41,093 nucleotides of DNA, taken from positions 1 to 41,093 of the forward strand of contig JAFGIX010000088.1 of NCBI GenBank assembly GCA_016929395.1, read 5' to 3'. Positions 27,118 to 38,832 of this stretch are shown here, piece by piece. The notes below the pieces were generated by a model that did not search any database, was not told where the DNA came from, and worked only from the letters and a program-made list of their open reading frames with translations. Position 1 is the first letter of the stretch; the number at the start of each line of letters is the position of its first letter. The position numbers and the translations under genes were made by a program. This DNA is from Candidatus Zymogenus saltonus (GTDB taxonomy: Bacteria; Desulfobacterota; Zymogenia; Zymogenales; Zymogenaceae).

Positions 27118-27146
27118 TTGACACAATCAATCGGTTTTGGTAAGAT
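27118..27146 (+). promoter_or_regulatory. Promoter of the FadR-type regulator gene
   Basis: TTGACA (27118-27123) and TAAGAT (27141-27146) are 17 bases apart. Confidence 0.65.
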
Positions 27147-27150
27147 TAGG

Positions 27151-27163
27151 TCAGATGGTCTGA
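27151..27163. promoter_or_regulatory. Candidate GntR/FadR-type operator
   Basis: TCAGA-TGG-TCTGA is a perfect inverted repeat over the expected transcription start (about 27153). Its size and position fit self-repression by the GntR protein encoded next. No second copy was seen before the aldolase gene. Confidence 0.55.
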
Positions 27164-27188: not shown

Positions 27189-27881
27189 ATGGAGCCGATA
27201 AACAGAGTCAACATATCCGAGTCGATCGTACGCCAGATGATCGACCTTATCAGCAAGGGGGTCTACCCCCCCGGCAAGAAGCTGCCCCCGGAGCGGGAGC
27301 TGATGCTGCAGCTGAACGTGGGGCGGTCGTCAGTCAGGGAGGCCTTTCAGGCCCTGGCCATAATGGGGCTGGTCGATATCCGCCCGGGTCTGGGGACGTT
27401 TGTCAGGGAGGTGACCAATGATGTCGCGGTCCCCGCAAGCATCTTCGCCCCCCTCGTGAGACCCGAGGACGCCGAAGACCTCCTCGAGGCCAGGCTCTTG
27501 GTAGAGCCGTCGATAGCCGCCATGGCGGCCCGGCGTCACACGGAGGAGGAGATCGAAGAAATCGAGCGGTTGCTCGAGAGGTGCAGGGACGCCTCCAGAT
27601 CGGGGGAGGTGGTCTATCCGCTGGCGGCGAGGTTTCACGTGGAGATTGCCAGGGCGACGCACAACATAGTATTCACCCGTTTCATAGAGACGATCGCCGG
27701 CCTCTTTGCGGTCCGCGGAGCGCTGATGGAGAGGCACGAGGACTACCTCGACTGGGAGTACTCCTCTCATCATGCGATTTTCGACGCCGTACGCTCCCGC
27801 AACCCGAACGAGGCGCACAGCCAGATGGAAAAGCACATCAGAGAGGTGACGCGCATTTACGTGGAGAGGGAGGGGAGCTGA
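27189..27881 (+). CDS. GntR-family regulator, FadR subfamily (FCD domain)
   Basis: This 230-residue protein has an N-terminal winged helix (residues 8-75: YPPGKKLPPERELMLQLNVG then RSSVREAFQALAIMGLVDIR). The C-terminal helical FCD domain (about 95-225) contains a possible metal site in RFHVEIARATHN and SSHHAIFDAV. FCD regulators commonly sense sugar acids or other organic acids (for example UxuR, ExuR, GntR-like). It heads the sugar-acid cluster and should respond to one of its intermediates. A palindrome at its promoter suggests self-control. Confidence 0.92.
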   Translation: MEPINRVNISESIVRQMIDLISKGVYPPGKKLPPERELMLQLNVGRSSVREAFQALAIMGLVDIRPGLGTFVREVTNDVAVPASIFAPLVRPEDAEDLLEARLLVEPSIAAMAARRHTEEEIEEIERLLERCRDASRSGEVVYPLAARFHVEIARATHNIVFTRFIETIAGLFAVRGALMERHEDYLDWEYSSHHAIFDAVRSRNPNEAHSQMEKHIREVTRIYVEREGS

Positions 27882-28037
27882 ATATTGCTCTGGCGTTTTC
27901 CCGTATCCCAAAGGATGAGGGAATCCCGCCGCCTCGGCCGTCGATAGTCTATTTTAGTGGCTTTAAAAAAAGCAAGAGGTTGTCAAACCTGCGGGTAGAT
28001 TTTTCCTTTAAATATAGAAAAAAAGGAGGGAGCGGTC

Positions 28038-28745
28038 ATGTCGACAACACAACTCTCCCACGATGAGGTCATAACCCTCTGCGGGCGCCTCGAAAAGACC
28101 TACACCCCCGCCGTCGCCGACACGCTGGACGGTATGGGCTTTTTTAACCAGGCGATGCACATCGGCTTCGTCCCGATATTCTCAGATAGCGTGGTGGCCG
28201 GGCCCGCCTTTACGATGGACGAGGCCAAGACCAAGAAGAGCACGAGGCTCGCAGAATACGATCCCGAATTCGTGGCCCAGGCGCTGACGGCCATATTCGG
28301 CAACATGGAGAAGGGCCAGGTGATCGCCGTCAACACCAACGGCTTTTTCGGGGCGGGCGCCTTCGGAGAGCTTATGGCCACCACCAGCAAGTACTACGGC
28401 GGGGTGAAGGGCGCCGTGGTGGACGGCCCGATCAGGGACATCAACAGGATAAGGGAGATCGAATTTCCGGTCTGGGCGAAGGGGAACATCCCCACCGACT
28501 CCATCGGCCGGGTCGATCTGGTGGGGGTCAACGGTCCGATCTTCTGCGGCGGGGTAAGGGTCAACCCGGGCGATATAATCTTCGCCGACTGCGACGGCGT
28601 GGTGGTGATTCCCATGAACGACGTGGACCTGAAAGCGGTCGTGAAGGAGGCGGAGGAGGTGGTCGCGGCGGAGAGGAGGTCGAGGCAGGAGATCAGGGGG
28701 GGGAAGTCTCTGCTTGACGTCTACAAGAAGTACGGCAAGCTTTAA
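28038..28745 (+). CDS. RraA-like aldolase (HMG/CHA aldolase family)
   Basis: This 235-residue protein has the RraA/4-hydroxy-4-methyl-2-oxoglutarate aldolase signature. It shows FGELMATTSKYYGGVKGAVVDG, PIRDINRIREIEFPVWAKG with the Arg and Asp that bind substrate and Mg(II), and CGGVRVNPGDIIFADCDGVVVIP. Family enzymes cleave pyruvate-yielding aldols or decarboxylate oxaloacetate. In this cluster the likely job is to split a 2-keto-3-deoxy sugar acid into pyruvate and an aldehyde. The ribosome site AAAGGAGG is strong. It is 34 bases ahead of the LarA-like gene. Confidence 0.88.
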   Translation: MSTTQLSHDEVITLCGRLEKTYTPAVADTLDGMGFFNQAMHIGFVPIFSDSVVAGPAFTMDEAKTKKSTRLAEYDPEFVAQALTAIFGNMEKGQVIAVNTNGFFGAGAFGELMATTSKYYGGVKGAVVDGPIRDINRIREIEFPVWAKGNIPTDSIGRVDLVGVNGPIFCGGVRVNPGDIIFADCDGVVVIPMNDVDLKAVVKEAEEVVAAERRSRQEIRGGKSLLDVYKKYGKL

Positions 28746-28779
28746 TTCTAATCTGGTAATCTGGTAATCGGGCAACGAA

Positions 28780-30027
28780 ATGGGCCTCTTTGAGTTTCAA
28801 TACTTCGACGAGCGCGTGGCAGTCGAGATTCCCGGCGAGCTTCTGATCGACAAGATCGAGCCGGAGGTCGTGACTGCGCTTTACGACGTGTGCTCGGCGA
28901 CGGAGGAGGCGCTGTCAAATCCCGTCGGGGCGCCGACCATTGAGGACTCGATATCGAAAAATAGTAAAGTCCTCGTCGTCGTCCCGGATAAGAGCCGTCA
29001 CACCAACCTTCGGGAGGTCGTGAGGGTCCTCCTCTCCCGTATCGATAGCGCCGGTGCCAAGAGGGAAGACATAACGATCCTGATAGCCACAGGCACGCAC
29101 CGTCCCATGACGGAGGCGGAGATCGCCCAAAAATACTCCGATGTTTTGGAGGGGTATAGCGTAGTCAACCACGTATACGACGACGAGTCCACCCTCGTCG
29201 ATCTCGGAACTACGAAGGACGGCCTCCCCGTCCAGTTCAACCGCCTCATTCTAGAGCATGACTTCATCGTCTCGGTAGGGAACATCGGCCCCCACCCGGT
29301 GGGGGGCTACTCCGGCGGGGCGAAGGGGCTGCTCCCAGGGATCGCCGGAAAGCGTTCCACCGACTACTTTCACTGGGAGGCCACCAACCACCCTCTCTTC
29401 GACGTCTTCGGCAACGCCGACAATCCGATCCGCCGCGAGATGGAGGAGATCGTGGCCGAGACGGGGCTGTCGTTTATCGTCAACACGACCGAGAACGCCG
29501 ACCGTGAAATATCGGGCGTGTTTGCCGGTCACTACGTAGAGGCGCACCGTAAAGGCGTCGAGTTTCTCAAAAAGACATCCCCCATCGCCTATCCGGTGAG
29601 CCTCCCGGACATCCTCGTGGTCGGCTTAGGTTTAGACCGCCCCGACCTCTGGGGGGGCGCGGCGGGGATATACCTTGCGGCGGCGCTGTTGAAGGCAGGG
29701 GGCATTCTTGTCCTCTTTGCAAAATGCCCAGAGGGGGTGGCGAACAACCACCCCGTGGTCTTGGAGCACGGCTACAGAGACTGGCGCCGGGTGAGGGAAA
29801 TGGTGATGGACGGGAAGATCGCCGACAGGACCGGCGCATCTCACATCGTTACGGTCGGAAAGATATTGGAGGAGAAGGATATGAAGGTGATATTGGTGTC
29901 CGGCTCCATTTCTAAAGAGGACGCCGAACGCCTCGGATTTATCGGCGCAGACAGGCCCCAGGAGGCGGTCGATATGGCGCTTTCCACTGCGGAAAATCCG
30001 GGCGTTCTGATCTACTGGAGGATATAG
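28780..30027 (+). CDS. LarA-family nickel-dependent hydroxyacid racemase/epimerase
   Basis: This 415-residue protein belongs to the LarA (DUF2088) superfamily, which inverts the alpha-hydroxy carbon of 2-hydroxy acids with the nickel pincer (NPN) cofactor. The key residues are present: Arg73 (DKSR), His107 (GTHRPMT), His172 (GPHPVGGYSGGAKG), Lys182 of the pincer linkage, and His198 (STDYFH). These match Arg75, His108, His174, Lys184 and His200 of lactate racemase. Superfamily members epimerise gluconate as well as lactate or malate. Its place next to a dehydratase and an aldolase suggests C2 epimerisation of an aldonate. The larB, larC and larE cofactor genes are not in the window. No strong ribosome site is seen, so coupling is possible. 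Confidence 0.87.
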   Translation: MGLFEFQYFDERVAVEIPGELLIDKIEPEVVTALYDVCSATEEALSNPVGAPTIEDSISKNSKVLVVVPDKSRHTNLREVVRVLLSRIDSAGAKREDITILIATGTHRPMTEAEIAQKYSDVLEGYSVVNHVYDDESTLVDLGTTKDGLPVQFNRLILEHDFIVSVGNIGPHPVGGYSGGAKGLLPGIAGKRSTDYFHWEATNHPLFDVFGNADNPIRREMEEIVAETGLSFIVNTTENADREISGVFAGHYVEAHRKGVEFLKKTSPIAYPVSLPDILVVGLGLDRPDLWGGAAGIYLAAALLKAGGILVLFAKCPEGVANNHPVVLEHGYRDWRRVREMVMDGKIADRTGASHIVTVGKILEEKDMKVILVSGSISKEDAERLGFIGADRPQEAVDMALSTAENPGVLIYWRI

Positions 30028-30029
30028 CG

Positions 30030-31673
30030 ATGGCAATGGGAATGGCGAAAAAACCTAAGAGCGGCGCCCTGACCAAAGACGCCGACAGGCTGGCTACCGC
30101 CCTCATCCGGGTGGAGCTCCTGAAGGCATGCGGCATAAGGCGGGAGGAGATCGAGAACAAGCCTTTGATCGGGATCGTCAACTCGTGGAACGACCTTTTG
30201 CCCGGGCACCTCCATTTGAGAGAACTCGCCAGGTCGGTCAGGGACGGGGTGCTGGCGGCGGGGGGAGTCCCCCTCGAGTTCAACACGATCGCCCCCTGCG
30301 ACGGCTACTCCAACGGGCTTCCCGGCATGAGGTACGTCCTTCCGATGCGGGAGATCATCGCCGACGCCGTGGAATCTATGGTTTCGGCCCACGGATTCGA
30401 CGGGCTGGTCTTCCTCTCCGGGTGCGACAAGATCGTCCCCGCCCAGCTCATGGCGGCGGCCCGCCTCGACCTCCCCTCGATCTTCGTGACCGGGGGGCCG
30501 ATGCTCCCCTTCAACGCCTTCGCCCCGAAGGGAACGCCGCCGATCCTCTCGATGGTCTCCTGCCCGGGGCCGGGGGCGTGCAGCGGCATGGGAACGGCGG
30601 TGTCGATGCAGTGTCTGGTCGAGGCGATGGGGATGTCGCTGCCCGGCTCCGCCGCCACCCACGCCGTCCACAGCGAGAAATTCCTGATGGGCCAAAAAAG
30701 CGGAATGCGGGTGGTCGAGATGGTGGAGGAAGAGCTCTCCTGCAGAAAGATATTGACCGAGGGGGCGCTGAGAAACGGCCTCGTCACGACTGCGGCGGCG
30801 GGCTGCTCCACCAACGTGGTTATCCACCTCCTGGCGCTGGCGGAGGAGCTGGGCCTGAAGCTTTCGATAGACGACTTCGACAACGTGGGGCGGGAAGTCC
30901 CCCACATCCTCGGCGTATATCCTTCAGGGCCGTACTTTCTCCTCGACGTATATAGAGCCGGGGGGATACCGGTTATGCTCAAAAAGGTTGTGAAATTTCT
31001 AAAGATCGACGCCCTCACCGTCACCGGGCGCACCATAGGCGAAGAGGTTGAGCCGTTTTCCTGCACCGACGACGACGTTATCCGCGATCTCGAAAACCCC
31101 TATCACCCGGACGGAGGGATCGCAATCCTCAGGGGGAGCCTTGCGCCCGACGGCGCGGTGGTGAAGACCGGAAGCATCCCGGAGTCGATGCTCAAGTTCA
31201 CCGGGCCCGCCCACGTCTACGAAAGCGAGGCCGCCGCCATCGAGGGGGGGACGAAGGGCGAGTTCGGCGTCGGGGAGGTGATCATCATCAGGAACGAAGG
31301 GCCGGTAGGGGGGCCGGGGATGCCGGAGCTCCTCACCGTGACGGAGCTTTTATTCCAATTGGAGATAGCCGACAAGAGCGCGCTGATCACCGACGGGCGG
31401 TTTTCCGGCTTCTCCCGGGGGCCGTGCGTGGGCCACGTCTCCCCGGAGGCGTTCGTCGGGGGGCCGCTGTCGCTGATCGAGGACGGGGACATCATTACAA
31501 TCGACATACCTAACCGGGACATCTCGTTTAACGTAAGCGAGGAGATTCTCAAGAAACGGGCCGAAAAGAGGAAGCCCGAAAAGCGGTCTCTCACGGGGGC
31601 CTTGTCTAAATACGCCGCCCTCGTCTCCCAGGCGTACAGGGGGTGCGTAACCAAAGTGGAGGATGGAAAATGA
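30030..31673 (+). CDS. IlvD/Edd-family dehydratase, probably sugar-acid
   Basis: This 547-residue Fe-S enzyme has the three cluster cysteines Cys90 (APCDG), Cys132 (SGCDK) and Cys184 (GACSGMGTA). Its catalytic region is ITDGRFSGFSRGPCVGHVSPEA with the base Ser. Family members dehydrate dihydroxy acids: IlvD in branched-chain amino-acid synthesis, others aldonates to 2-keto-3-deoxyaldonates. The company of a lactonase, epimerase and aldolase favours the sugar-acid role. It starts 2 bases after the LarA-like stop, and the next gene overlaps its stop by 4 bases (ATGA), which shows tight translational coupling. Confidence 0.9.
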   Translation: MAMGMAKKPKSGALTKDADRLATALIRVELLKACGIRREEIENKPLIGIVNSWNDLLPGHLHLRELARSVRDGVLAAGGVPLEFNTIAPCDGYSNGLPGMRYVLPMREIIADAVESMVSAHGFDGLVFLSGCDKIVPAQLMAAARLDLPSIFVTGGPMLPFNAFAPKGTPPILSMVSCPGPGACSGMGTAVSMQCLVEAMGMSLPGSAATHAVHSEKFLMGQKSGMRVVEMVEEELSCRKILTEGALRNGLVTTAAAGCSTNVVIHLLALAEELGLKLSIDDFDNVGREVPHILGVYPSGPYFLLDVYRAGGIPVMLKKVVKFLKIDALTVTGRTIGEEVEPFSCTDDDVIRDLENPYHPDGGIAILRGSLAPDGAVVKTGSIPESMLKFTGPAHVYESEAAAIEGGTKGEFGVGEVIIIRNEGPVGGPGMPELLTVTELLFQLEIADKSALITDGRFSGFSRGPCVGHVSPEAFVGGPLSLIEDGDIITIDIPNRDISFNVSEEILKKRAEKRKPEKRSLTGALSKYAALVSQAYRGCVTKVEDGK

Positions 31674-32638
31674 AGATAGCGATAACGGGAAGCTCCGGGT
31701 ATCTGGGGAGGTGCGTGACCGCCGCCGCCCTGAGTCGCGGTCACGAGGTGGTCGGGATCGACATCAAGCCTTCCGGGATAAGGGACGGGCGGTTTTCTGA
31801 GCATCTCATAGACATCGCCGACGGGGAGGCGGTAAACAGGGCGGTTAAAGGCGTCGACGCCGTCTTCCACCTTGCGGCGGCGCTGGCCCAGTTCGTGAGA
31901 GACGAGAAAAGGATGCAAAAGACAAACGTGGACGGGACGGCAAACATCCTTAAAGCGGCAAAGGTAAATAAAATCAAGAAGTTGGTCTACACCTCCTCGG
32001 TGGAGGTCTACGGGATCGACGTCCCGACCCCCTGTCCGGAGGACGCCCCGATGAACCCGATCTGTCAGTACGGCAGGGAGAAGGTGGAGTGCGAGAAGAT
32101 GTGCCGGGACTACGGGAGGGAGGGGCTCGACATTACGATCTTCCGTCCGCCGACAATAAACGGGCCGGGACAGAACGAGCCGTTTCTGGTCTCCCAGATG
32201 GAGGCGGTATACCGGGGAAAGGCGACGCTCCTTCCGGGCGGGGGTAGGTCGAGGCTCCAGATGGTGGACGTGGCCGACGTGGCCGACGCCCTCTTTCTGG
32301 CCCTGGAGCACCCGAAGGCGGTGGGCGCCGTGATGAACCTGGGGAGCGACAACGTCCCCACCCTTCGCGGGATGGCCCAGGCCCTCTACGAGCATATAGG
32401 GAGGCGCCCCAAATTCATCTCGATTCCGGCCCTGCCGGCGAGGATTGTCGTCAGGGGGCTATCCGCTATGGGGCTCTCCCCCATCGAGCCGCAGCATTTG
32501 GAGATCGCCCTTAAGGACTACGTCTTCGACAACAGCCGCGCCAAGGAACTCATCGGCTGGCGGCCGAAGAAGGACGACATCGAGTCGGCGAAGGCCGCCT
32601 TCGACGACCATATCAAGAGGATGGAGGTGGGAGGCTGA
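31670..32638 (+). CDS. NAD-dependent epimerase/dehydratase-family oxidoreductase
   Basis: The start at 31670 (site GGAGG) overlaps the previous stop by 4 bases and gives 322 residues. The extended-SDR motifs are TGSSGYLGR (residues 6-14), the catalytic Ser109-110 (TSSVEVYG) and Tyr134-Lys138 (YGREK). Asp31 after the second strand suggests NAD rather than NADP. The family includes sugar-nucleotide epimerases but also uronate and hexose dehydrogenases. Here a free-sugar dehydrogenase that makes a lactone would fit the neighbouring lactonase; this is inference. Confidence 0.83.
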   Translation: MKIAITGSSGYLGRCVTAAALSRGHEVVGIDIKPSGIRDGRFSEHLIDIADGEAVNRAVKGVDAVFHLAAALAQFVRDEKRMQKTNVDGTANILKAAKVNKIKKLVYTSSVEVYGIDVPTPCPEDAPMNPICQYGREKVECEKMCRDYGREGLDITIFRPPTINGPGQNEPFLVSQMEAVYRGKATLLPGGGRSRLQMVDVADVADALFLALEHPKAVGAVMNLGSDNVPTLRGMAQALYEHIGRRPKFISIPALPARIVVRGLSAMGLSPIEPQHLEIALKDYVFDNSRAKELIGWRPKKDDIESAKAAFDDHIKRMEVGG

Positions 32639-32716
32639 AAGTGGGAATTTTTTGCCTATAATGGAAGAAGGGGATCATCGTCCCGTAAACCCCCGTAACC
32701 ATAAGTGGAGGAGACT

Positions 32717-33409
32717 ATGGAGATTACGCTGATAGGGCAGAGCACCCTTATGATAAAGACCTCGGGCGTCTCGATCATGACAGACCCGTGGTGGGGGTCG
32801 TTCGAGTTTCTCAGGGGCGTCCCCCTGACTGTCGACCCGGAGAAGATCGACCCGATCGACCTTATGCTCGTCTCCCACAACCACGTGGATCACTGGTGCT
32901 CCAGGGCGGTTGAGCTCGCCGCAGATCGGGAGATCCCTGTTATCGGCTCCGTAAAGGCCGCAAGGCGCGCCAGGCGGGGGGGTGTGAAAAACGTGACCTC
33001 CCTGAAGCCGGGCGACTCGTGCAAGTTTCGGGGCCTTGTTGTCCACGCGACCCCCGCCACACACCCCTTTGCGAGGGACGCCGTGGGATTTGTGGTTGAG
33101 GGCGAAGAGTGCTTCTACTTTTCGGGGGATACCCGCTACGACGGGGAGATCGTGAAGTTCCTCGAAGGGTTCGACCTCGACTGCGTCTTTCTGCAGAGCG
33201 CCGCATCGACCTATCCCCTCGTGGGGAAGGACGGAATGGAGCTCGAAGACGCGGCCCGCCTCGTCAAGGAGGTTGGGCCGAAGGTTACTGTCCCTATCCA
33301 CTTTCAGGTGAAGGGGAAGACCGTGGACACCGAGACGTTAAGTAAATGGAAAGTTACATCGCGCCTCGTGGTGCCGGAGCACGGGAAGACGGTGGAAATC
33401 TTCTTTTAA
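32717..33409 (+). CDS. UlaG-like metallo-beta-lactamase-fold lactonase
   Basis: The start at 32717 (site GGAGG) gives 230 residues. The metal-binding HxHxDH motif is His54, His56, Asp58, His59 (SHNHVDH), with Asp138 (FSGDTRYD) and His195 (VPIHF) completing a two-metal site. This is the UlaG-like branch (L-ascorbate-6-phosphate lactonase and relatives). Hydrolysis of an aldonolactone is the likely role, linking the dehydrogenase to the dehydratase. Other hydrolase roles cannot be excluded. Confidence 0.82.
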   Translation: MEITLIGQSTLMIKTSGVSIMTDPWWGSFEFLRGVPLTVDPEKIDPIDLMLVSHNHVDHWCSRAVELAADREIPVIGSVKAARRARRGGVKNVTSLKPGDSCKFRGLVVHATPATHPFARDAVGFVVEGEECFYFSGDTRYDGEIVKFLEGFDLDCVFLQSAASTYPLVGKDGMELEDAARLVKEVGPKVTVPIHFQVKGKTVDTETLSKWKVTSRLVVPEHGKTVEIFF

Positions 33410-33503
33410 AACAACTTTTGGGATAATTATTAGAACAACTAGGATGCCCCGGTTAAGGCCGATGATCTCATCACATACCACCGGGGCCAATGGAGGACAC
33501 TAT

Positions 33504-34775
33504 ATGGAAGGACGCTCACAAGATCAAAGGGGGATGGCGGCTCCGCCGGCGCAGGGGCGGATATCGCTATCCCGCATGTTCACCTACAGCTCGGCGAGCC
33601 TCGGGATGGGCCTCTTCTACGCCTTCAACAACTTTACGCTGCCGCTGTTTTTGAGGAGCTACACGTCTAACGACGCCCTGATCGGGATCCTCTCCAGCAC
33701 GCGGTCGTTCGAGGGGGCGATGGTGCAGCCGGTCATAGGCGCCTGGAGTGACCGGATATGGACGCCGATAGGGAGACGCACACCCTTCTTCATCCTGGGG
33801 ATGCCGATTGTCGTTGCCCTTCTCGTCTACTGCTCCTTTCGGCCGACATTTATCCTCCTCATCGCCGCGATACTCTTTTTCACCCTTATATTTAACATCG
33901 GGGTCGACCCGTACATCGCCCTCCAGTCCGATATCGCGCCACCGGGGCAGCGAAGCACGTTAAACAGCATTTCCACCCTCTTCATCGCCTTTGGACAGCT
34001 CTCCTTTGCGTTGATAAGCGGACTGATCCTGTGGAATATCAATCCCGCGTATTGCTTCTACTTCGTGGGCGGGGGGATGTTTTTGACCTACCTCATAACG
34101 TCCTTCGGGATAAAGGAGCGGCGGGAGAACGTAGAGATTCGACAGCCGATGAAGCTGAAGGAGCACCTGAAGTCTCTCCCAGACTACCCGGAGGCCCTGA
34201 AGTTTTTTGTCTCCCAGCTGCTGCTCTGGTTCGGAATAAACGCCGCCACCCCCTTCCTGACCCTCTTCGCCAGCCGGGAGGTGCCGGGGGTGAGCGCGGG
34301 GGTCGCCCAGATTCTGGCGGCGCTCCTTCTGGGTTTGACTGCGCTCTGTGCCGTGCCGGTGGGCGTCTTGGGGGACAGGATAAGCAGGAAGAGGCTTCTG
34401 CAGTTTGGCCTTGCGCTGTTCGGCGTCGCCGCTCTCGTGGTTGCCTTTTTCGTTAGGTCGCTTCCCATCCTTGCCCTTCTCATCGTGGCCATCGGAATCG
34501 GAAACACGTTTCACACGGTGCTCTCCTATCCGCTCCTCACGGAGCTCGCGCCCCACGAGAGGATAGGCGAGTTCTGGGGGATAAACACGTTTTTCTCCTC
34601 CTCCGGCGCAATCTTCTCCGCCGCGTTGGCGGGGTGGCTCGCCGACATCTTCGGGACGTATCGGGCGGTCTTCGTCCTGACGGGGATCTGTATGCTGGCG
34701 GCGCTGATCGTCCTTCAGTTCGTTCACCCCGAAAAGGTTGCCGGTGGGGAAGGCCCGACATCGGGAGATGTCTGA
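33504..34775 (+). CDS. MFS/GPH-type sugar transporter
   Basis: The start at 33504 (site TGGAGG) gives 423 residues; a frame 60 bases longer has no ribosome site. There are 12 predicted membrane helices. The loop motif SDRIWTPIGRRTPFF (after helix two) and LGDRISRKRLL in the second half are typical of the major facilitator superfamily and close to the sucrose/GPH-like branch. It probably imports a sugar or glycoside with a cation. Its stop overlaps the start of the GH38-like gene by one base (TGATG), so the two are translationally coupled and likely serve the same substrate. Confidence 0.88.
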   Translation: MEGRSQDQRGMAAPPAQGRISLSRMFTYSSASLGMGLFYAFNNFTLPLFLRSYTSNDALIGILSSTRSFEGAMVQPVIGAWSDRIWTPIGRRTPFFILGMPIVVALLVYCSFRPTFILLIAAILFFTLIFNIGVDPYIALQSDIAPPGQRSTLNSISTLFIAFGQLSFALISGLILWNINPAYCFYFVGGGMFLTYLITSFGIKERRENVEIRQPMKLKEHLKSLPDYPEALKFFVSQLLLWFGINAATPFLTLFASREVPGVSAGVAQILAALLLGLTALCAVPVGVLGDRISRKRLLQFGLALFGVAALVVAFFVRSLPILALLIVAIGIGNTFHTVLSYPLLTELAPHERIGEFWGINTFFSSSGAIFSAALAGWLADIFGTYRAVFVLTGICMLAALIVLQFVHPEKVAGGEGPTSGDV

Positions 34776-37423
34776 TGAGCCTCTTCGAGCGCGCAAGGGA
34801 GATTCTCACGAGCGAGCGGATGCCACCCCTTGTGCTCCGGGCCGTTGCGCGCGCGGCCGTCGGGGTAATCGGACTCAAGATGCGCCTTAGTGACCGCAGG
34901 GAGGCGCGCCGGGAGCCGGGGGCGAAGCCGCCCAAGGGGAGGCTATATCTGGTGGACGGCTACCACGGGGGTGTGGTTTTCTGGGACTGGCTTGGGATTC
35001 GGGGAGGGGGACTTTGGAGCGTTTACAACTGGCCCCTCTGCCTCAGGCCCCCCATCGAGAGGGCGATTTGCGACGATCGCTTTAAGGTCGTTCTTGACCT
35101 CGATGCCTACACCTACGAGTGGATGGGAAGGGAATATCCCAAGGGGGCAGGGCTGATCCGGCGGGGGATAGGGACGGGGCGGGTCGAGCTTGTAAACGGC
35201 ACCTACGCCCAGCCCTTCGCCGCCGCCGAGAGCGGGGAGTCGTTCCTGCGCCAGATCGAGCTCGGAACCGGGGAGATTCGATCCGCCCTTGGCTGTGACG
35301 TCACGACCTTCTACTCCCAGGAGCCCTCCTGCTTCCCCCAGCTTCCGCAGATATTAACCGCCTTCGGATACAAGAGGGCCGTCTTTCGCACCCAGTGGGC
35401 GTCCTTCGGGACAGATCCGGGCCACGACGCTGAGATGGTCTCGTGGCTGTCTCCGGACGGGAGCGGGATACCGACGATCCCCAGGTACAAGTTCCAAAAT
35501 TACGAGCGTCAGCTGAAGGACCACCCCGGCTTGGCCGCCGGCTCCCTCTCGATGGGGGATGACATCCCGGACTGGGCGCCCGAGAGCCTGGCGCCGTTTG
35601 AGAAGGAGGCAAGGAGGCGCGGGATCATCAGCCCGCTCGTGGCTGACCTCAAGGACGTAAACATCCCGGAGGCCCCGCTTCCGAGGGGGGTTGAGATGGC
35701 CAAGATGGAAAACGTCAGCTTCACGACCGTATCCGAATACGCCCGTTCGGCCGACCCCCCGGCCGAGTCTATCTTTCACGATCTGGACGACATCCCCTGC
35801 ACCCTCCCCTGGGGGCTCGAGGCGGAGGGCGTTCCCAGGGCCGCGGCCGCGGCCGAGAGTGCGCTGATCGTCGGGGAGCGGCTGGACGCGGCGGCGCGTT
35901 TCTTCGGTTACTCAAGTCAGGAGGCGCGACTCATCGACGCGTGGAAGTCGTTTTGCCTCGCTCAACACCACGATCTCTACGTCTGCGGGCCGTGGCACTC
36001 CAGGGCGCACGGGACCTCGATGTCCACTGTGGCAATCGACTACGCGAAATCCGCCAGGGACACGGCAGAGGCGGTCGCAAGAGAGGCCCTGTCGAGGCTC
36101 TCGTCAAGGCCGGGCGGAGACGTGATCGTCTTCAATCCGGCGGGAAACAAGAGGTTCGATTACGTGGAGGTGTCGGTGCCGCGGAAAGCCTTGCCGTCGA
36201 CCCCAAACTCCGTCGCCCTGACGGACGGTCTTTTGGAATATCCATGCCAGCCATGCCAGGTGGCGGCCGAGGATGGGGAGAGTGTCAGGCTGGGCGCCCT
36301 AGTTCATGCGCCGTCTCTCGGAATTGTGCACCTGAAGCTGATACCGGCGAGCGATTCCAAAGGCAAAGATAGATTCCGTGAGGCGAATGGGAAGATCGGG
36401 CTGAAGCTTGACGTCTCGCCGGAGGGGCGCGTCTCTCTAATTAACGGGAATGGCGGGGTAGTTATCGAGGGGCCGTTTCTCACCTGCGGACGGGACGGGA
36501 GGGCGCACGATTCGAGAGATTCGGCCTCAAATGTAAAATGGGTCGCCGACGGCCCGGTCTTCAGCCGCATAGAGGTTGAGGGGAGCGTTGCCGGACTTTC
36601 ATTCATCCAGACGCTCACCGAGTACCGGGGGACGGGGAGGATCGCCGGGAGGGTGGGGATCGACTTCGGAGAAGAGGGCGCATACCTCGGCCCGCAGATC
36701 GAGGACGATGAGCCGGGGCGTGCCTGCTCCGTCCAGGACGAAAGGAAACTCTGCCTCGCGCTCAAATCGTCCAAAAAGCGGATGTGGTGCGCATCCCCCT
36801 TCTGGATCGGCGAGATTAAGGGGGAGCGGGCCGCCAGCGCATCCTGGGTCGGGATCGAAGACGGTGACGGCCGCGGCCTTGCGCTGATCAACAGGGGGAC
36901 GAGGGGCTATTACCTCGACCGCAATACCGGTGTCTTCAGGAACGTCCTCGCCTGGGGGCCGAAGGAGTGGATCTATGCCAGCGACGACTCGATCACGAGA
37001 GGGCGCTCGAAATACACGATGCTCAGAGGCAAAGAGACCTTCAGATACGCGATCGCGCCCTACGCATCGCGGGAGGAAGCAGAGATCGCGGCGGCGGAGG
37101 TCAGGCTGCCCCTCCTGGCGATATTTAGGGGAGGGGGGCAAGATGAAGAGCGGGGAGAGCTACCACCTCCTTTCAGCGCGCTTTCGGTTTCGCCGAAGTC
37201 GGTTATTATCACGGCGTTTCTGGTTCGCGGCGGTGAAATCTACGCCAGGCTCTGGAACGGTTCGGACGGTAAGGTTGAGGCCGAGATCGTCACGGCCGAG
37301 GGAGGCCCCGTATACTCCGCTCCCCTGGGGCTGGGCGTGGGGGGGGAGGAGCTGACGGGTTCCAGGCTTACGATTCCACCCTGGGGGATACGCGCCGTCA
37401 GGATCGGGGAGGAGACTAAATGA
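34775..37423 (+). CDS. Divergent GH38-like alpha-mannosidase-family protein
   Basis: The start at 34775 overlaps the MFS stop by one base (site GGGAG) and gives 882 residues. The fold resembles glycoside hydrolase family 38. It has an N-terminal domain (residues 55-330) with GRVELVNGTYAQPF and ESFLRQIELG, a helical linker with AWKSFCLAQHHD (His398, His399, Asp400) as in the family QHHD zinc motif, and a C-terminal beta domain. Known GH38 enzymes use HxD plus a nucleophile Asp. Here the first motif is YHGG (His64, Gly66) and the nucleophile region is YSQEPSCFPQ with no Asp. It may act with a different residue (Glu183) or not cleave mannosides at all. No signal peptide is seen. Confidence 0.75.
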   Translation: MSLFERAREILTSERMPPLVLRAVARAAVGVIGLKMRLSDRREARREPGAKPPKGRLYLVDGYHGGVVFWDWLGIRGGGLWSVYNWPLCLRPPIERAICDDRFKVVLDLDAYTYEWMGREYPKGAGLIRRGIGTGRVELVNGTYAQPFAAAESGESFLRQIELGTGEIRSALGCDVTTFYSQEPSCFPQLPQILTAFGYKRAVFRTQWASFGTDPGHDAEMVSWLSPDGSGIPTIPRYKFQNYERQLKDHPGLAAGSLSMGDDIPDWAPESLAPFEKEARRRGIISPLVADLKDVNIPEAPLPRGVEMAKMENVSFTTVSEYARSADPPAESIFHDLDDIPCTLPWGLEAEGVPRAAAAAESALIVGERLDAAARFFGYSSQEARLIDAWKSFCLAQHHDLYVCGPWHSRAHGTSMSTVAIDYAKSARDTAEAVAREALSRLSSRPGGDVIVFNPAGNKRFDYVEVSVPRKALPSTPNSVALTDGLLEYPCQPCQVAAEDGESVRLGALVHAPSLGIVHLKLIPASDSKGKDRFREANGKIGLKLDVSPEGRVSLINGNGGVVIEGPFLTCGRDGRAHDSRDSASNVKWVADGPVFSRIEVEGSVAGLSFIQTLTEYRGTGRIAGRVGIDFGEEGAYLGPQIEDDEPGRACSVQDERKLCLALKSSKKRMWCASPFWIGEIKGERAASASWVGIEDGDGRGLALINRGTRGYYLDRNTGVFRNVLAWGPKEWIYASDDSITRGRSKYTMLRGKETFRYAIAPYASREEAEIAAAEVRLPLLAIFRGGGQDEERGELPPPFSALSVSPKSVIITAFLVRGGEIYARLWNGSDGKVEAEIVTAEGGPVYSAPLGLGVGGEELTGSRLTIPPWGIRAVRIGEETK

Positions 37424-37470
37424 GAAGTAAATTACTTTTTCAAACCTTGATACATTAAAGGGGGAGAAAA

Positions 37471-38832
37471 ATGTCGAAGGATATGAATAAACCAACGGAA
37501 AAGGCAAAGACCGAGTCGATCTCCCGACCCCCAATCGGGCCGCGCAGACTTTTGATCTTGGGGCCGGGGCTTGTCTGGGCGGCAAGCTCCGTGGGCGTGG
37601 CGGAGCTCGTCTTTGCAACGAGGGCCGGGGCGATCTTCGGGTTTCTCCTGATCTGGGTGCCTGTCGTCTCCCTCTTTTTCAAGTACTTCATAACGGAGCT
37701 CGTGGGGCGATACACCATAGTCACCGGCGAGGACGTCATCGCCGCCTTCGGGAGGATCGAGACGAGGATAGGCCCCGTGACCCTGCCGAAGGGGTGGATA
37801 CTCTGGCTCTTCTGGGCGTTCTTCGTGGCCAGCGTGGCGGGTATGAGCGGCATCGCCCTTACCGTCGGGAGCGCCCTTTTTGCAATATACTCAGGCGTCC
37901 CCTACGTCGTCTGGTCGATGATTGCTCTGATCCTCGTCGGGATAATCCTCTTTCTCGGGAGCTATCGGGGACTGGAGTACGCATCGAGGCTCTTGATGAT
38001 CGTAATCGTATGCTTCATCTTCTACGCCGTCCTTCGCCGCTTCCCGCCCCTTTCTGAGATGGCCGCGGGACTTGTCCCGAACGTCCCGGAGGAGTCCCTC
38101 AGGGAGCTGATCCCGCTCCTCGGCTGGTCGGGGGCGGGGGCGATGGGCACTATCTGGTTTTCCCTCTGGACGAAGGCGAGCGGCCGCGGCGCATCGGCGA
38201 TGATCGACCGCCCCTCGACCGAGGAGGTCAAGGCGATAAAAAGCTGGATCTCGATAAACCGGACCGATCTCTTGGTAAACATGATCCTGACCGCCGTGTT
38301 GACGGTGGGATTTATCATAGCCGGGGCGATTATCCTCAACCCCCTCGGCATAGTGCCGGAGGGGGAGGGACTGGGGATTTCGCTGGCAAAAATCGCTGGG
38401 GAGTTCTACGGCCCCGGGGCCGTGATGATCTTTCTTGTCGGCGTAGTCGGTACCCTCTACAGCACGCTCCTTGCGGACACCGACGGATTGTGTCGCGTGG
38501 CGGGCGGGGCGGTCAAGGCCCAGTCGAAGACAAAGAGGCCGGAGCACTTCTTCTATATGACGTTTTTGATCGTCTACGTGATTTTCGCCAGCCTCTTCAC
38601 CACCGTCATACAGGCGCCGGTTCTGCTCCTTCAGGTAACCGCGGTCATCGACACGATTCTTCTCCCCATAGTCGGCGTCATGGCAATCCATATCTGCACG
38701 AAGACGCTTCCGGCGGACTTCAGGCCCAGGCGGGCGACGATTATTATGTCGTATCTGTCGGTCCTGTTTTTCATCTTCTTTATTGTCCTTCTCGTAATGG
38801 CCGTAGTAAAGGGGGTAGACTTCTCGATGTAA
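37471..38832 (+). CDS. Nramp-like transporter lacking the metal motif
   Basis: This 453-residue protein has about 11 membrane helices and the overall Nramp (SLC11) pattern. The first helix, LGPGLVWAASSVGVAELVFA, replaces the metal-binding DPGN with SSVG. The sixth helix region (WSGAGAMGTIWFSLWTKASG) has no MPH motif. It therefore probably does not move divalent metals in the usual way. Such divergent Nramp-like proteins are common next to carbohydrate genes. The ribosome site AAAGGGGGAG is good. It follows the GH38-like gene by 47 bases and looks like the last gene of the cluster. Confidence 0.8.
   Translation: MSKDMNKPTEKAKTESISRPPIGPRRLLILGPGLVWAASSVGVAELVFATRAGAIFGFLLIWVPVVSLFFKYFITELVGRYTIVTGEDVIAAFGRIETRIGPVTLPKGWILWLFWAFFVASVAGMSGIALTVGSALFAIYSGVPYVVWSMIALILVGIILFLGSYRGLEYASRLLMIVIVCFIFYAVLRRFPPLSEMAAGLVPNVPEESLRELIPLLGWSGAGAMGTIWFSLWTKASGRGASAMIDRPSTEEVKAIKSWISINRTDLLVNMILTAVLTVGFIIAGAIILNPLGIVPEGEGLGISLAKIAGEFYGPGAVMIFLVGVVGTLYSTLLADTDGLCRVAGGAVKAQSKTKRPEHFFYMTFLIVYVIFASLFTTVIQAPVLLLQVTAVIDTILLPIVGVMAIHICTKTLPADFRPRRATIIMSYLSVLFFIFFIVLLVMAVVKGVDFSM

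Follow-up and report, generated by a model that had tools for sequence, protein, structure and literature searches.

The window analysed here, a stretch of 41,093 nucleotides, is contig 88 of the genome of Candidatus Zymogenus saltonus (3.76 Mb, 99.6% complete). Between positions 27189 and 38832 it carries nine ORFs, all on the plus strand, and the ORF list together with Pfam and NCBIfam searches placed them in the families named in the original prediction (Table 1). The spacing given there was also confirmed: LarA and IlvD are separated by 2 bases, the SDR gene (ATG at 31670) shares 4 bases with the end of the IlvD gene, and the GH38-like gene (ATG at 34775) shares 1 base with the end of the MFS gene. 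For the SDR, family searches gave no specific family match. The palindrome before the regulator occurs once in the window versus 0.05 copies expected, and it may possibly act as the operator of the FadR-type regulator. The GC content of the cluster is 0.61 versus about 0.50 in the left flank. Recent acquisition is not shown by composition, because the GC3 of the cluster, although near the upper limit, falls within the host range.

Table 1. Features of the cluster, in window coordinates, with the matches on which the assignments are based.
Feature	Position	Strand	Evidence or context
Promoter-like TTGACA-17-TAAGAT	27118-27146	+	Upstream of regulator
Palindrome TCAGATGGTCTGA, 13 bases	27151-27163	+	Before regulator
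GntR/FadR-type (FCD) regulator	27189-27881	+	Pfam FCD 1.9e-23, GntR 4.1e-18
RraA-like protein	28038-28745	+	Pfam RraA-like 2.5e-29
LarA homologue	28780-30027	+	Pfam/NCBIfam Lar_N
IlvD/Edd-family dehydratase, predicted aldonate dehydratase	30030-31673	+	Pfam/NCBIfam ILVD_EDD
Extended SDR (NAD-dependent epimerase/dehydratase family), possible sugar dehydrogenase	31670-32638	+	Pfam Epimerase 1e-41
Metallo-beta-lactamase-fold hydrolase (UPF0173/UlaG-like), possible lactonase	32717-33409	+	Lactamase_B_2/UPF0173; HNHVDH motif
MFS transporter	33444-34775	+	Pfam MFS_1 8.1e-37, MFS_2 9.7e-18
Divergent GH38-like protein	34775-37423	+	GH38N 2.4e-9; weak GH38N/GH57
Nramp-superfamily transporter	37471-38832	+	Pfam Nramp 2.6e-20

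A scan of the LarA alignment against 84,980 species genomes returned 252 relatives, of which the best 80 were kept. Among these 80, the quartet RraA–LarA–IlvD–SDR was found in just one other genome, that of Candidatus Solincola daggyaiensis (Actinomycetota, Geothermincolia), in the same order and with identities of 74, 61, 70 and 60%, respectively; the next best LarA in this set is 41% identical. The first Solincola contig stops within the SDR gene. A second contig, reached via the UlaG-like protein, has 31 bases of the SDR gene in common with the first. It continues with the remainder of this gene and then encodes a Zn-alcohol dehydrogenase, a UlaG-like protein 57% identical to that of the host, and a KDPG/KHG (Eda-type) aldolase. 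From this overlap, and from two halves that complete one SDR, we infer that the contigs join. Read in gene orientation, the second contig begins with 371 bases (L157, 3234-3604) that do not fit the SDR and look like an assembly chimera. No MFS, GH38-like or Nramp gene was seen in Solincola, whose contig stops before that point.

The gene order is absent from the congener, two family members and the other relatives examined. LarA matches in a 395-genome phylum sample are all at or below 40% identity, a 396-genome Actinomycetota sample gave a LarA match in Solincola only, and no close LarA was found on plasmids. Searching the Actinomycetota sample with RraA gave two further loci. The search for the same gene order thus found the core quartet kept in a second phylum, and because these four genes keep their order in an unrelated bacterium, the gene set is, on gene-order grounds, real and beyond chance.

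The proposed pathway also depended on genes for the NPN cofactor. LarB and LarC are encoded adjacently on contig C52 of the host genome and LarE on C27, all above curated cut-offs, so that absence of larBCE is excluded; LarC is also present in Solincola. Neighbourhoods of related larA genes point in a similar direction. Within about 10 kb, an IlvD gene is present at 8 of the 80 loci (the best 80 of 252 relatives), a KDPG aldolase gene likewise at 8 and a KDG-type kinase gene at 7, whereas by our estimate about one IlvD and well below one aldolase would be expected by chance, with the caveat that the loci are not fully independent; the expectation is low because the 80 loci sum to 1.29 Mb, about one-third of a genome. 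In Natroniella sulfidigena, for example, a TRAP transporter, LarA, a hydroxyacid dehydrogenase, a PfkB kinase and a KDPG aldolase lie together, with IlvD about 2.5 kb beyond. Judged from these counts and this locus, LarA beside 2-keto-3-deoxy-sugar-acid genes is a recurring theme.

Other larA neighbourhoods are of different kinds. A second LarA homologue of the host lies between a glycosyltransferase and a cytidylyltransferase-NeuB-type fusion (L040 on contig C77, 5622-9935), and this three-gene set looks alike in another Zymogenus and a deltaproteobacterial MAG (L038, 1-4157; L042, 4630-8977). If true, a nickel-pincer enzyme in synthesis of nonulosonate-type surface sugars would be new. At another locus (L041, 6373-9990), LarA was seen by eye to adjoin a PdxA-like gene, a DUF1537 kinase-like gene and TRAP genes, a composition that suggests threonate or erythronate epimerisation.

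There is good support for a route that degrades a sugar acid by way of a 2-keto-3-deoxy acid: the core is conserved in two phyla, larBCE is present, and genes for KDG kinase, KDPG aldolase and IlvD lie at related larA loci. This part of the original prediction, with LarA beside IlvD/Edd, stood; its RraA aldolase, its non-phosphorylating character, its ordinary epimerase and its mannose idea are unsupported or doubtful. We consider it probable that a FadR-regulated operon degrades a sugar, or a sugar released from a glycoside, via its acid, with LarA epimerisation, IlvD/Edd dehydration and aldol cleavage. The MFS transporter would serve in uptake, and the GH38-like protein might release the sugar from a glycoside. 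The sugar would then be oxidised by the SDR in the host, and by the SDR and/or Zn-alcohol dehydrogenase in Solincola, the lactone opened by the UPF0173/UlaG-like protein, the aldonate epimerised at C2 by the nickel-pincer LarA variant, and one epimer dehydrated by IlvD/Edd to a 2-keto-3-deoxy acid. Cleavage to pyruvate and an aldehyde or aldehyde phosphate would probably fall to a KDPG/KHG-type aldolase, which is encoded in the cluster in Solincola and beside a KDG kinase on host contig C36; RraA may contribute a second cleavage or some related reaction. The sequence itself shows the gene families, the conserved core, the NPN-synthesis genes and the active-site residues, whereas each reaction, its place in the route and the substrate are inferred. 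Against this explanation, the candidates for sugar dehydrogenase, lactonase and glycosidase in the cluster have no close relative backed by assay; the deviating LarA described below and the finding of the quartet in just one other genome also weigh against it.

Several assignments at the periphery of the operon had to be adjusted. The protein called UlaG-like scores well below the cut-off for UlaG (44.6 bits versus 306 for PRK11709) and is closer to UPF0173 (69 bits); we regard it as a putative lactonase. No description of IolN-type ring opening by an alcohol dehydrogenase with UPF0173 was found in the open-access literature. The GH38-like protein has weak PDB matches to alpha-mannosidases; it retains QHHD, whereas DGYHGG stands in place of the HxD zinc site and a Glu, in YSQEP, in place of the Asp nucleophile. 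A clade with DGYHGG and this Glu is common to Zymogenus and Bacteroidales (the window gene; L178, 8001-9923; a Parabacteroides homologue among them), and it may be an undescribed glycosidase type. The sole pointer to mannose, which had been offered as a possible substrate, is this divergent gene, and mannose is a guess because the active site is changed. The Nramp-like protein belongs to the Nramp superfamily (NCBIfam Nramp_1, 90.7 versus a cut-off of 50), but the canonical DPGN, which metal-transporting Nramps have in TM1, is absent. Since SVGVAE replaces it in the translation, as seen by eye, the protein may not be a metal transporter.

The enzyme that cleaves the 2-keto-3-deoxy acid is the point at which the strongest alternative departs. 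The operon may make only the 2-keto-3-deoxy acid, with the kinase and KDPG aldolase of contig C36 finishing a semi-phosphorylative route and RraA catalysing another step, for example, dehydration/decarboxylation of a 2-keto-3-deoxy acid. We hold this to be a serious possibility, somewhat short of an even chance. Contig C36 (L163, 8745-14597) encodes a KDG-kinase-like PfkB protein, a GPH transporter and a 688-aa protein that matches nothing in Pfam or NCBIfam and, divergent from these genes, an Eda-type KDPG aldolase. Moreover, Eda and a KDG-type kinase accompany an RraA homologue in one genome (G160), an Eda-type ORF adjoins one in another (G321), and KdgK and Eda are found with LarA relatives; the RraA family is also known to include a 2-keto-3-deoxy-glucarate dehydratase/decarboxylase (PMC8563752). 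However, the C36 genes lie on another contig with the GPH transporter and may serve a different sugar, and Solincola has the aldolase but no KDG kinase homologue was found there.

A fully non-phosphorylating route, as originally proposed, in which RraA, as a class II pyruvate aldolase, would cleave the product of IlvD, appears rather unlikely. RraA is the sole aldolase-like gene within the window, and in an alignment to 3noj its R133-D134 corresponds to catalytic Arg123 and metal-ligand Asp124 of HMG/CHA aldolase (PMC5065237). Its score reaches no cut-off among the named NCBIfam families. The aldolase role is doubtful because a separate KDPG/KHG aldolase accompanies close RraA homologues (74–78%) in three Actinomycetota genomes, in one also with a kinase, and this dedicated enzyme probably makes RraA dispensable for the same cleavage. 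These genomes are Solincola and two others, in which RraA is 77–78% identical, an Eda-type aldolase adjoins it and LarA is absent from the stretch read. For the host, the term non-phosphorylating is unproven because of the kinase–aldolase pair on C36; Solincola is the better candidate for such a route, because the kinase homologue was not found there.

The LarA protein itself deviates from what had been described. It was correctly credited with the pincer lysine and both catalytic histidines, but the absence of a further catalytic residue had been missed. In alignments, D70, R73, H107, H172, K182 and H198 correspond to D72, R75, H108, H174, K184 and H200 of lactate racemase, so that the catalytic Asp and both His, the NPN-binding Arg, the pincer Lys and the Ni-ligand His are all present. 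Lys298, which completes the set of four catalytic residues in characterised LarA enzymes (PMC7583248), is replaced by Ala295 in an alignment of about 80 relatives, nearly all of which have Lys. Ala occurs otherwise only in the two nearest relatives (L070 and L071), which form one branch with the window LarA in a quick tree (support 98 and 100; long stem branch of 1.21). Among the six LarA-family genes of the host, two paralogues have a gap at this column, and a divergent one on contig C60 has Ser, in a doubtful alignment. The window LarA reaches the cut-off of no NCBIfam LarA family, the best being LarAH6/malate racemase (255 versus 500 bits). An ordinary C2 epimerase is not supported, because the Lys298 equivalent is absent.

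That this branch performs another hydride-transfer isomerisation on an intermediate, rather than C2 epimerisation of a free aldonate, is in our judgement unlikely. The Ala is common to all three branch members, and LarA homologues without H174 or K298 may catalyse another hydride-mediated reaction (PMC7583248); however, every other catalytic, pincer and nickel-binding residue is retained, and the adjoining IlvD suits a 2-hydroxy acid. Active-site variants of other kinds were also seen. In one clade (L095, L096, L109, L111, L143 and L145), Ile or Leu replaces the second catalytic His174, for which the described variant is Asn. In four homologues from Syntrophaceae and a relative (L079, L082, L085 and L039), Asn replaces the NPN-tethering Lys184; these genes lie near KDG kinase and/or KDPG aldolase genes, and their products may lack covalent NPN binding.

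The dehydratase has the residues of the IlvD/Edd family, namely Cys90-Asp-Gly, Cys132-Asp-Lys, a second Cys ligand (Cys184) and the catalytic Ser459 in DGRxSG. Cys-Asp-Gly occurs in 6-phosphogluconate dehydratase, for which a different cluster type was suggested, and the role of the Ser was likewise described (PMC5770437). GTA, in MGTAVSM, stands where dihydroxy-acid dehydratases have [FY]TAN, and is also found in an arabinonate-type paralogue and several LarA-linked IlvDs. It is very improbable that this enzyme is a dihydroxy-acid dehydratase, with LarA acting on 2,3-dihydroxy-3-methyl acids in side reactions of branched-chain amino acid metabolism: its score against TIGR00110 (610.3 bits) is barely under the cut-off of 618.15, with the Solincola copy at the line (618.6), and a LarA homologue racemises 2,3-dihydroxyisovalerate (PMC11770544), but a genuine ilvD lies on host contig C57 (804 bits), the neighbouring genes are of sugar type, and the protein diverges around Cys-Asp-Gly and at the otherwise conserved GIAMxHxGM.

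LarA as an aldonate 2-epimerase is not new, since the GntE enzymes (LarAH19/20; Thermotoga maritima GntE2 is one) are already known to epimerise gluconate and mannonate. GntE shares with our protein the LarA family, the NPN-binding residues, both His and a place in sugar-acid catabolism. However, GntE keeps Lys298 and has Glu-Ser, a form of the Glu-Val/Ser motif, in the loop after His174 (PMC7583248), whereas the window LarA has Ala295 and Pro173-Val174, and T. maritima GntE (PDB 4NAR) is its weakest PDB match. The T. maritima enzyme was proposed as a link from mannonate to the pentose phosphate pathway, which gluconate is thought to enter, whereas our LarA neighbours a dehydratase. The best sequence match is malate racemase Mar2 (PDB 6d6z, E 2.6e-36), but our protein lacks Lys298 and has His/Ser in place of Mar2 Lys351, thought to bind the second carboxylate of malate. 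The missing lysine argues against a C4 dicarboxylate; an aldonate is not thereby proven. Oxidative Entner–Doudoroff-type pathways (Dahms/Weimberg and branched forms) share the dehydrogenase, lactonase, IlvD-type dehydratase, 2-keto-3-deoxy acid and aldolase, whereas the proposed route would insert a C2 epimerase ahead of the dehydratase. The LarA–KdgK–Eda–IlvD loci of Natroniella, Syntrophaceae and Halanaerobiales, also with LarA next to 2-keto-3-deoxy-sugar-acid genes, differ in TRAP uptake of acids, an in-cluster kinase, a LarA with Lys298, and neither RraA nor the quartet order. No description of the gene set was found in the open-access literature.

The novel part of the gene set is the LarA branch without Lys298. 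Very tentatively, this branch, which keeps both His and the nickel-pincer residues, might carry out an undescribed hydride-transfer isomerisation, or interact with its substrate in another way, as part of a new sugar-acid pathway common to Zymogenia and Geothermincolia. The IlvD of the cluster, with its score at the dihydroxy-acid dehydratase cut-off, is likely to be misannotated as an enzyme of branched-chain amino acids. Substrates have been proven for just a handful of LarA groups, and an operon conserved across phyla, in which LarA goes together with a dehydratase, narrows the candidate substrates to a short list. Moreover, a natural LarA without Lys298 directly poses the question of whether nickel-pincer catalysis needs that residue.
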